A DNA stretch of 64,000 nt, from IMG/VR virus record IMGVR_UViG_3300046542_000248, positions 1 through 64,000 of that record, one strand, 5' to 3'. Origin of the DNA: a virus. Position numbers and translations under genes: made by a program. The notes below the pieces were generated by a model, which was not told where the DNA came from, searched no databases, and saw only the letters and a program-made list of their open reading frames with translations. Shown piece after piece: positions 3,793 through 58,727 of this stretch; the stretch's first letter is position 1; each line of letters opens with the position of its first letter.

Positions 3793-4221
3793 ATGACAAA
3801 ACCTTTAGGCTTTACAACTTTTAAACCATTCATGGTGAAGTACAGTATCAATCAAATCGAATTCAAAGAATTGGTGGATAAGTATTTTAAAGAATACATT
3901 AAAATTGAGCTTGAAACTGAAGTTACTGTCATTCCTAATCCTAATACTAAATCTACAGATAAATATATTGGGCAATTGGTATTTGTTGATATCGAAAATA
4001 TTCCTGATCAAAGCTATCATTCATTATTGGCACATGGTATTAATGATGAAACTGAACCGTCCCGCAATTTTGACATAATGATGGATATATTATTTGCTCA
4101 ACCTGAATGGTATGTAATTGATAAATCATCAGACGAGGGTGAATGGCATATGTTTATTCACTGCATGTTCGGAGATTACATAACGTTCAAAGGACCAACT
4201 GCTGAGCGTGAATCACTATAA
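3793..4221 (+). CDS. Hypothetical protein
   Basis: The product is 142 aa with no recognised family. Its ribosome binding site (TAGGAG) lies at the end of the upstream gene. The protein is acidic, with a beta-rich N-terminus and a C-terminal part rich in Trp, His and Met. No metal or nucleotide motif is complete. It is the second gene of a two-gene unit bounded by terminators at 3328 and 4248. Confidence 0.8.
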   Translation: MTKPLGFTTFKPFMVKYSINQIEFKELVDKYFKEYIKIELETEVTVIPNPNTKSTDKYIGQLVFVDIENIPDQSYHSLLAHGINDETEPSRNFDIMMDILFAQPEWYVIDKSSDEGEWHMFIHCMFGDYITFKGPTAERESL

Positions 4222-4243
4222 TTAGTTATTAACTTTATTAAAA

Positions 4244-4303
4244 CACAGTATGGATGGGGTTAAAACCTCATCCATTATTTTTTAGTTAAAACTACATACT
4301 GTG
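4244..4303 (+). promoter_or_regulatory. Nested inverted repeats before gene 4318
   Basis: CACAGTATG at 4244-4252 is the exact reverse complement of CATACTGTG at 4295-4303. The pair encloses the terminator hairpin at 4248-4285, and its right arm runs into the GGAGG of the next gene. Forming the outer stem would compete with the left edge of the terminator stem and mask part of the Shine-Dalgarno region. A regulatory role is an inference. Confidence 0.4.
4248..4285 (+). terminator. Rho-independent terminator
   Basis: TGGATG-GGTT pairs with AACC-CATCCA (core 4251-4275), followed by TTATTTTTTAG. Confidence 0.75.
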
Positions 4304-4317
4304 GAGGAATAATAACT

Positions 4318-4773
4318 ATGACACAAACCGAAAGAGCTTTTAAACCAGGCATTTATACACACTTTAAAGAAGGTACTAAGTATCTTGCTTATGAATCTAC
4401 TACCGATGAAGAAACAAAACTTCCTCGTATTAGTTATCATTCACTTGAAAATCTTGATGAAAAATGGAACCGTAAACAAGAAGTATTTATGGCTCTTGCT
4501 GATCAGGATGAAACAAATAAAACTGGTCAAGAGTTTAAGTTTGAATTCCTGACTAATGAACATTGTCTGTATGACAGAACTATTGATCCGTCAACGTATA
4601 ACGTATTAGTAGGTTTACGTATGATAGATTTGGTTAAAATTGTATCGGTTGAAGGTACTTTTGCTGGACGGGTGCAAGCAATTAGTGTTGCAGGCGTGAT
4701 TATAGTTACTTTGGATAAAAATAAAATAACTATTTCATGGAACGATGTAAAGCGATTATATAAAATCTATTAA
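4318..4773 (+). CDS. DUF1653-like small protein
   Basis: The product is 151 aa. Residues 8-60 resemble the DUF1653 pattern, in which GxYxHFK is followed by a strand, then YxSLE, then a Trp and an Arg-containing turn before MF. Here KPGIYTHFKEGTKYLAYEST is followed by ISYHSLE and W-N-R-K-QEVFM. The function of DUF1653 is unknown. The C-terminal 60 residues form a beta-rich segment with IVSVEG and VIIVTLDKNKITISW. ATG 4318 has GGAGGAATAAT upstream. The family assignment is from memory of the pattern only. Confidence 0.75.
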   Translation: MTQTERAFKPGIYTHFKEGTKYLAYESTTDEETKLPRISYHSLENLDEKWNRKQEVFMALADQDETNKTGQEFKFEFLTNEHCLYDRTIDPSTYNVLVGLRMIDLVKIVSVEGTFAGRVQAISVAGVIIVTLDKNKITISWNDVKRLYKIY

Positions 4774-4783
4774 GAGGTGTCTA

Positions 4784-5122
4784 ATGGCAATTGATATTCA
4801 GTATACTTCTCTTGAAGCATCTAAATATGATGTAATCATAAAATTTCTAGAAGGTAAGAAATTTGTATGGGCATTTAAATCAATGTCTGTATGGATTGCA
4901 ATATACCCTATCATTATCAATGGTAAGGATACCTTTCTGATTCGATGCTCTAACAGTGATCAACTTGAAATTGCTGATTCGTTTAGAATAGTCAATACTA
5001 TTATTAAACGGGAAACATATCAAGCACAATGGTTGGACGATGGTGAGATTCTTAAAGTGCAAGAATTCTTAAAAGATACTGATAAAATTGATATGACTGA
5101 GGTGCTATTATGCGAAACGTAG
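4784..5122 (+). CDS. Hypothetical protein
   Basis: The product is 112 aa with no recognised family. The start is ATG 4784 after AAGAGGTG. The sequence is mixed alpha/beta with an aromatic stretch near residues 25-45. The gene overlaps the next one by 13 nt, and its 3' end supplies the GAGGTG ribosome binding site for it. Confidence 0.78.
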   Translation: MAIDIQYTSLEASKYDVIIKFLEGKKFVWAFKSMSVWIAIYPIIINGKDTFLIRCSNSDQLEIADSFRIVNTIIKRETYQAQWLDDGEILKVQEFLKDTDKIDMTEVLLCET

Positions 5123-5430
5123 AACGAATGCTTAATCATAAGAAACGTCGTATTCGCGATAAGTACTATAAGAAATATCGAAGAGAGTATTATTCAGATT
5201 TATACACTCTGAATAATACTTCTAGTATAGGTAGCGTTCTTTTAGATGCTACTGCCACAAGATTAGTAGAAGATGTTGATGCTGATATACATATGGATTT
5301 ATTAAAACTCGGTGTTCCGAATAAGAATCAACGTAGTTACAATCCCGAAGCTCTTAAACCTATGGTGATAGATAGTGGATTTCCATTGAAATCATTAGCT
5401 CGAAAGATTATTTCTTGGGTGAAACCATGA
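5110..5430 (+). CDS. Hypothetical basic protein
   Basis: The product is 106 aa. The first 25 residues are strongly basic, with many Arg, Lys and Tyr (for example HKKRRIRDKYYKKYRREYY), which could bind nucleic acid. The middle is acidic and the end neutral. GAGGTG lies five bases before ATG 5110, within the preceding gene. No family is recognised. Confidence 0.75.
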   Translation: MRNVERMLNHKKRRIRDKYYKKYRREYYSDLYTLNNTSSIGSVLLDATATRLVEDVDADIHMDLLKLGVPNKNQRSYNPEALKPMVIDSGFPLKSLARKIISWVKP

Positions 5431-5684
5431 CAGATCTTATCTATGCTACAATTCCAGCTCATCGTATGCATCATAAGAATAACAGGATTGGAAAGAAATG
5501 GCGTAAGAAATACATGAAAGTTCAAGCTATTTATACAAACGTTATGCCAATAAATGCACCTACTAATTGCGATGAATGTAACAGTCATGAAATCACCTTT
5601 AAAGGTTCACTTAGCAAAACTCCTGAACTGGAGAAAATGGCTGAGAAAATTGGATTTAGATTTAAGTTACCTAGATTCATGTAA
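5427..5684 (+). CDS. Hypothetical small basic protein
   Basis: The product is 85 aa. ATG 5427 overlaps the TGA stop of the previous gene (ATGA), a typical coupled start. The protein is basic, with one CDEC pair in the middle and HHKNNRIGKKWRKKYMK near the N-terminus. A single CxxC pair is not enough to call a zinc finger. It shares a short, basic character with the gene before it, and the two may be functionally linked. Confidence 0.72.
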   Translation: MTDLIYATIPAHRMHHKNNRIGKKWRKKYMKVQAIYTNVMPINAPTNCDECNSHEITFKGSLSKTPELEKMAEKIGFRFKLPRFM

Positions 5685-5722
5685 AAGCCTCTGAAGTCGT
5701 GTTTTAAATAATTATATGTAGA

Positions 5723-5767
5723 CCATGATATTAGAAGTATATTCCGAAGGGAGTTCTAATATCATGG
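5723..5767 (+). promoter_or_regulatory. Start-codon-sequestering inverted repeat
   Basis: CCATGATATTAGAA (5723-5736) and TTCTAATATCATGG (5754-5767) are perfect 14-bp complements separated by 17 nt. In RNA the right arm would hold ATG 5764 in a stem, while the Shine-Dalgarno AAGGGAG (5747-5753) lies at the 3' side of the loop. This is the layout expected of a translational operator or RNA switch. It could also be a DNA operator. Confidence 0.55.
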
Positions 5768-6288
5768 CTAAATCTACATTAGTTATTTCCGCTTTCCCAG
5801 GTGCTGGTAAGACTACATTGTATAATGCAATGGAAGAATTGAAAAAAGTTAATACTGTATTTGAGGGGCAGCTTGATATCCTAGATTCGGACTCGTCCCA
5901 ATTTTCCTGGATCGAACCAGGTGTAAGACACCCAGATTTCCCTAATAACTACATTGCTCATATTAAAGAGAATATCGGCAAAGTAGATGTTATCATGACT
6001 TCGACTCACAAAGTTGTGCGTGATGCTCTTAAAGAAGCTGGTATTAACTTTGTTATCGTATTCCCTCTTAGAAATTTGAAAGAGGAATATATTGAACGCT
6101 ATCTGTTACGTGGTAGCCCAGATGGGTTTATCAAGTTAATGAATGAGAAATGGGATGACTTCATCACAGAACTCAAAGAAGAAGAGTATGTGAACAAAAT
6201 CAATTTGATGCCGGGTCAATTCTTGGGAAGTATCTTAAATGATTCTAACTCAATGACTCAGCAGTTCTTAGCTCAATGCTCTAATTAA
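5764..6288 (+). CDS. P-loop nucleotide kinase-like protein
   Basis: The product is 174 aa. The N-terminus carries a Walker A loop, FPGAGKTT (residues 11-18), after a beta strand, as in nucleoside or nucleotide kinases. The sequence then has DILDSDSS, which may be the substrate-binding acidic segment, IGKVDVIMTSTHKVV as a Walker B-like strand, and FVIVFPLRNLKEEYIERYLLR, which resembles a lid region. The length is close to small kinases such as adenylate or thymidylate kinase. It most likely phosphorylates a nucleotide or another small molecule, but the substrate cannot be read. ATG 5764 is preferred to ATG 5725 because AAGGGAG precedes it by ten bases. The start lies inside a perfect inverted repeat. 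Confidence 0.75.
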   Translation: MAKSTLVISAFPGAGKTTLYNAMEELKKVNTVFEGQLDILDSDSSQFSWIEPGVRHPDFPNNYIAHIKENIGKVDVIMTSTHKVVRDALKEAGINFVIVFPLRNLKEEYIERYLLRGSPDGFIKLMNEKWDDFITELKEEEYVNKINLMPGQFLGSILNDSNSMTQQFLAQCSN

Positions 6289-18282: not shown

Positions 18283-18375
18283 AGTATCACCATCCTTTTT
18301 ATTTGTACATTAATTTTGTGTTTTCTATATAGAAAACAGCCAATTAAAGTATATTAAACGAAAGGACTGAATCGA
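18283..18375. promoter_or_regulatory. Divergent intergenic region with a perfect 18-bp palindrome
   Basis: GTTTTCTATATAGAAAAC at 18320-18337 is perfectly self-complementary. It lies midway between the starts of two divergent operons (18282 leftward, 18376 rightward). It could be an operator or a two-way promoter element. The standard AT-rich box is absent here. Confidence 0.5.
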
Positions 18376-58685: not shown

Positions 58686-58727
58686 AAACATAAAGATAGG
58701 GAGGACAATTTCTCCCTATCTTTATTA
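58686..58727 (+). terminator. Rho-independent terminator
   Basis: AAAGATAGGGAG and CTCCCTATCTTT form a long stem, followed by ATTAGTTAT. Confidence 0.75.

Follow-up and report, generated by a model that had tools for sequence, protein, structure and literature searches.

A strong leader hairpin over the start of a phage kinase-like gene, and its possible role as a lineage-specific silencer of read-through transcripts

Introduction

How might a phage gene be expressed if its ribosome-binding site and start codon are held within a long hairpin in its own leader, and is such a hairpin a regulatory element or an accident of mutation? This question arises from the leader of a kinase-like gene in the window, which is the whole stretch of DNA analysed here, positions 1 to 64,000 of a virus record that is 246,901 bases long. 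The initial annotation had described an exact 14-bp inverted repeat at 5723-5767, with a 17-nt loop and an ATG in its right arm, and suggested it could act on translation as an operator, an RNA thermometer or a protein-binding switch. Both the coordinates and the sequence of the repeat proved exact: CCATGATATTAGAA (5723-5736) and TTCTAATATCATGG (5754-5767) are perfect complements separated by 17 nt, and the ATG of the kinase-like gene (5764-5766) lies within the right arm.

The host of this structure is a large, AR9-like bacterial virus. The window contains split multisubunit RNA polymerase genes, and the phage has two promoter classes, both resembling the classes of Bacillus phage AR9. The early class is AAATATATATTATT, followed by a G start, and the late class is AACA-N6-TA, corresponding to the consensus AACA-N6-TA/G (PMC5312081).

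Results

The gene and its neighbourhood

The leader separates two genes:

5427..5684, + strand: gene directly before the kinase-like gene and co-directional with it, with no terminator-like site between this gene and the kinase start
5764..6288, + strand: kinase-like gene, encoding 174 aa with a P-loop NMP-kinase-like fold (PHROG 4182), the homologues of which share the N-terminus

PHROG 4182 is a family of unknown function, and the label "kinase-like" is a fair one for a product with such a predicted fold. The AlphaFold model has a pLDDT of 88.6, and its best matches among solved structures are P-loop nucleotide kinases (of the CINAP/Fap7, guanylate and thymidylate kinase kinds), with modest TM-scores of ~0.5. 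Homologues are present in AR9, PBS1, BpSp, Herelleviridae and many other phages, and a scan of bacterial genomes for the gene identified no relative. The start codon at 5764 is supported by these homologues, which align from M5764; an in-frame upstream ATG at 5725 was rejected as the true start, as no Shine-Dalgarno (SD) sequence precedes it and the alignment of homologues begins at 5764. The genes between 3394 and 6551 all run in the same direction, and no terminator-like site was found in the interval 4275-5764.

A separate structure is found further upstream, at 4235-4318. Here an intrinsic terminator (4250-4275) lies within an inverted repeat (4235-4252/4295-4312) whose end is beside the SD of gene 4318; the left arm of this repeat includes AACACAGTATG, a late-promoter variant that differs in spacing.

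Structure of the hairpin

The 14-bp repeat is the core of a larger quasi-palindrome, in which 5706-5736 pairs with 5754-5788. The repeat originally described is therefore real, but its extent was understated, as the stem runs across 5706-5788:

5706..5736, + strand: left arm, comprising 5706-5714, a bulge at 5715, 5716-5722 and 5723-5736, as defined by the fold, the pair table and local alignment of the reverse complement with the right arm
5737..5753, + strand: 17-nt loop of the 14-bp repeat, holding an apical mini-hairpin (5741-5745/5750-5754) that closes a GAAG tetraloop
5747..5753, + strand: SD sequence AAGGGAG, of which 5750-5753 are paired in the apical mini-hairpin
5754..5788, + strand: right arm, comprising 5754-5767, a 5-nt bulge at 5768-5772 (CTAAA) and 5773-5788, holding the start codon and codons 2-9

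Folding of the 90-nt leader predicts a hairpin of 34 pairs at -32.9 kcal/mol. Its inner stem pairs 5723-5735 with 5755-5767, and its outer stem pairs 5706-5714 with 5780-5788, and 5716-5722 with 5773-5779, interrupted only by the bulged base at 5715 and the 5-nt bulge; the inner 14-bp hairpin alone has an energy of -20.7 kcal/mol. The SD does lie in the loop, where the initial annotation had placed it, but this location does not leave it entirely free. As the right arm extends through codon 9, the left arm mirrors nearly all of the gene start as an inverted copy.

Both RNA thermometers and protein-bound operators likewise enclose a start site within a hairpin, and the pairing of both the SD and the AUG would suit the former. 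However, the kinase hairpin is far too stable to be an RNA thermometer: even at 70 C the minimum-energy prediction retains the full stem (-9.7 kcal/mol), which hence would not open in the physiological range. Nor does any thermometer family match, and this part of the original suggestion can be given next to no credence. An Rfam search of the hairpin site returned no match even at E-values up to 1, and so recognised no riboswitch or other known RNA family there, and an intrinsic terminator was rejected because 5706-5788 lacks a GC-rich hairpin with a T run, and coding sequence follows the right arm.

Exceptionality within and between genomes

The hairpin is a real and extreme structure. In the 246.9-kb record, the kinase leader holds the only inverted repeat with a loop of 9-30 nt and perfect arms of at least 14 bp, against a mean of 0.08 per dinucleotide-shuffled genome, which bears out the view that such a repeat is unlikely to arise by chance. 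The folding z-score of the 90-nt leader is -6.8. Accessibility was quantified as the opening cost, the energy needed to clear positions -14 to +3 of a gene start, and genome-wide statistics were based on genes called with a simple ORF and SD script, rather than on curated annotation. The opening cost of the kinase leader, 23.7 kcal/mol, ranks first of the 228 genes in the genome (next highest 13.8, median 5.2), and second among 926 ATG genes with an SD from five related or compared genomes, behind AR9 gp047. Among 1311 genes in five genomes, the kinase leader also has the strongest gapped self-complementarity over a gene start. The proposal that the start codon is buried, and translation hindered, is thus well supported by the folding predictions.

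The coding side of the stem contributes to this cost. When codons 2-10 were synonymously recoded 400 times with the left arm fixed, the mean opening cost was 20.0 and none of the 400 recodings reached the observed value; hence the coding side fits the left arm to the full, although this result does not indicate which arm is the copy and which the original.

Absence from relatives

Fold and exceptionality were computed directly from the sequence, as were the absence of the hairpin in relatives, and the terminator and promoter that one relative has instead. The hairpin is missing from all 58 other kinase-homologue loci sampled, at which the opening cost never exceeds 9.4 kcal/mol, compared with 23.7 kcal/mol in the kinase leader. 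When the viral collection was searched for exact copies of the right arm, and of both arms, no match was obtained, and no recurrence of the hairpin was found at another gene or in relatives.

The most informative comparison is with the closest relative found (the L021 record), in which the polymerase is 81% identical, and the kinase, at the corresponding place, is 49% identical. Its kinase leader has no hairpin (z ~0). Instead, a strong terminator (L021 11766-11788) comes after the homologue of window gene 3394, and between that terminator and the kinase lies GACA-N6-TAA, a high-scoring late-promoter-like site 45 nt upstream of the kinase ATG. Window genes 3793-5684 sit between the two neighbours that are adjacent in this relative.

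As relatives keep the kinase gene without the pairing, the hairpin is not a conserved regulatory element of the gene, and a conserved cis-regulatory RNA of the gene family was rejected. By these sequence comparisons it is lineage-specific, and known from one virus only. The initial annotation had held that relatives retaining the gene without the pairing would count against regulation; such relatives exist, and the finding removes the conserved element, yet a function peculiar to this lineage may still be compatible with it.

The same observations bear on the main rival to a regulatory function, which is that the quasi-palindrome is a scar left by recent mutation; a template switch during replication, for instance, could have copied the gene start inverted into the leader. 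Such a scar would lower expression without being a selected switch, and might be mildly harmful or neutral. This would account for a hairpin found in this genome only, next to a gene whose homologues manage without one. It would also explain why the left arm is an inverted copy of 5754-5788 that includes coding sequence and differs by two indels and one substitution, as in a decaying duplicate. Against this, access to the ribosome site is extremely costly here, in a gene whose SD is otherwise good and whose frame is intact and conserved. The pairing that encloses the start codon is also perfect over 14 pairs, with decay seen in the outer part, although this pattern is not significant alone. 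A scar is therefore a possible explanation, if on balance an unlikely one.

Promoters in the leader

Transcription starting within the left arm had been regarded as evidence against regulation. It would not remove it, however: by analogy with T4 (PMC3014915), such a start would be the most plausible means of relief. No consensus early or late promoter was found in the kinase leader, and the best promoter-like site, ACCATGATATTAG, is one base off consensus:

5722..5734, + strand: weak, one-mismatch late-promoter-like site ACCA-N6-TAG (consensus AACA-N6-TA/G), implying a transcript start at 5733, inside the left arm

The site is 42 nt from the kinase start, within the favoured 40-49 band. Yet ACCA variants at promoter distance are not enriched in this genome (0.66x), and are only ~2x enriched across three pooled genomes (11 near, 19 far), such that ACCA is unsupported as an accepted late-promoter variant in this genome, and weakly supported in the pool. 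Additionally, the AR9 polymerase requires a template-strand uracil at -10, which is specifically recognised (PMC9209446); if the enzyme of this phage resembles that of AR9, ACCA would alter this position. With no consensus site, no enrichment of ACCA in this genome, and specific recognition of the AR9 base, a promoter starting transcription at 5733 is a possible candidate.

Other promoters and hairpins in the record were also noted. A perfect 14-bp hairpin lies between two genes at window positions 58687-58725; its left arm is overlapped by AACATAAAGATAG, a consensus late promoter, and hence this hairpin would form only on transcripts coming from upstream. A 23-nt inverted repeat (83%) at window 18306-18351 consists merely of two divergent late promoters back to back. 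Several early transcripts (record positions 136651, 142416, 185392, 186296, 77093, 23905 and 137408, + strand) would carry a strong hairpin at their 5' end, with the ribosome site still accessible; the neighbours 185392 and 186296 have nearly the same 5'-terminal hairpin, perhaps for mRNA stability.

Comparable leaders in AR9

Three leaders in AR9 (NC_031039) are comparable. In each, a long near-perfect stem covers the SD and/or AUG, and the left arm or loop holds an annotated early promoter:

NC_031039.1 39456-39510: gp047 leader, with a stem over the SD and AUG, the left arm of which is the promoter itself
NC_031039.1 85574-85635: gp107 leader, with the same anatomy as gp047
NC_031039.1 222013-222096: leader of the homing endonuclease gp264, with an 18-bp perfect stem over the AUG, and the early promoter in the loop

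Read-through RNA across these leaders would be silenced. They share their stem architecture and the same two promoter classes with the kinase leader, but the kinase leader has no early promoter, and the genes are unrelated to the kinase-like gene. The gp264 leader has no match in the near-identical phage Goe21, and so gp264 may be a recent insertion; the comparison of leaders across AR9, PBS1 and Goe21 involves near-identical records only, with no informative changes. In the AR9 transcription paper, translational control by 5' UTRs is raised as a possibility, and the main text refers neither to gp047, gp107 and gp264 nor to secondary structure.

Striking though these three cases are, no statistical support was found for a wider rule by which genes of AR9-like phages with buried starts would carry promoters. 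Across four genomes, promoters were not commoner at buried starts than elsewhere (three of eight at an opening cost of at least 16; Fisher p 0.54), and complementarity between promoters and ribosome-binding sites was not raised on average; two of 89 early leaders reached -20 kcal/mol or below by this measure, against 0.27 expected. Hence the AR9 leaders are individual cases, rather than instances of a rule.

Discussion

The most likely reading of the kinase hairpin, albeit a tentative one, is that it is a lineage-specific, cis-acting silencer of the kinase-like gene on read-through transcripts. Transcripts would run into the gene from those upstream, and on this long RNA the 34-pair hairpin (5706-5788) would lock the SD and AUG, such that ribosomes could not start. 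Translation would occur only from RNA lacking the left arm, generated either by a phage polymerase promoter starting in the left arm (the candidate ACCA-N6-TAG, start 5733), or by cleavage of the stem. The hairpin would thereby act as a translational insulator, replacing the terminator used by the closest relative. Folding is consistent with such a change of state, as the opening cost is 20.4 kcal/mol for RNA with the whole stem, which should be translationally silent, and 7.7 kcal/mol for RNA starting at 5733, which would be open for ribosomes. We infer that read-through RNA exists, that it is silent and how it would be relieved; the last of these steps is an inference because the sole candidate promoter is one base off consensus, and promoters are not generally enriched at buried starts.

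The second route of relief is the basis of another explanation, that the stem is primarily an RNase III-type processing site, with cleavage of the ~30-bp duplex separating the upstream message from that of the kinase and freeing the ribosome site. RNase III sites are found in phage messages, where this double-strand-specific nuclease cuts long duplexes. A long, near-continuous duplex of 34 pairs suits such an enzyme, and its action would explain kinase expression without a promoter in the leader, but if the cut fell in the outer stem only, the inner 14-bp hairpin would stay closed. Processing is an improbable primary function. Binding by a phage or host protein, possibly the kinase itself under autogenous control, would make the hairpin a translational operator, and phage RNA operators over ribosome sites are established, as with T4 gp43 and gp32 (PMC3014915). 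Yet this stem is so stable on its own that a repressor would be superfluous, and it has neither a known repressor nor a conserved binding motif in its loop, nor does it recur at another gene or in relatives; it is very improbable that protein binding is its purpose.

The silencer reading instead has its experimental precedent in the control of T4 genes e, soc, 49 and I-TevI, the ribosome sites of which are sequestered on read-through RNA, whereas transcripts initiated at a late promoter within the left arm leave them accessible (PMC3014915). Firstly, in the kinase leader too, a helix with upstream leader RNA buries the SD and AUG of a gene in an operon-like run. Secondly, kinase transcripts without the left arm are likewise predicted to be open. 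Thirdly, relatives without the structure exist in both cases, as some T4-like phages carry gene e without it (PMC3014915). However, the T4 leaders have a consensus late promoter in the left arm, whereas the kinase leader has only a one-mismatch site of an unrelated polymerase; the kinase stem is longer than the T4 stems; and its gene is nucleotide-kinase-like, unlike the T4 cases, with silencing predicted here from folding. Hence, while one feature of the T4 type, burial of the SD and/or AUG by pairing with leader RNA from upstream, is present, membership of the e/soc/49/I-TevI class is not claimed. Rather, phage ribosome sites sequestered by their own leaders are a known kind of structure, of which the kinase hairpin is a case not reported before.

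A broader and more speculative idea, which is rather unlikely as it stands, is that AR9-like jumbo phages, which have their own two multisubunit polymerases, independently evolved T4-type silencing by mirroring the gene start in the promoter or leader, with the kinase (through a variant promoter in the left arm), gp047, gp107 and gp264 as cases. As AR9 grows in laboratory Bacillus subtilis and its transcript starts are mapped, the general idea can be tested directly on gp047, gp107 and gp264. If the kinase hairpin does act as a silencer, translational control would insulate a phage gene from its neighbours in a place where a relative relies on a transcription terminator, and the T4 mechanism would extend to phages with their own multisubunit RNA polymerases.
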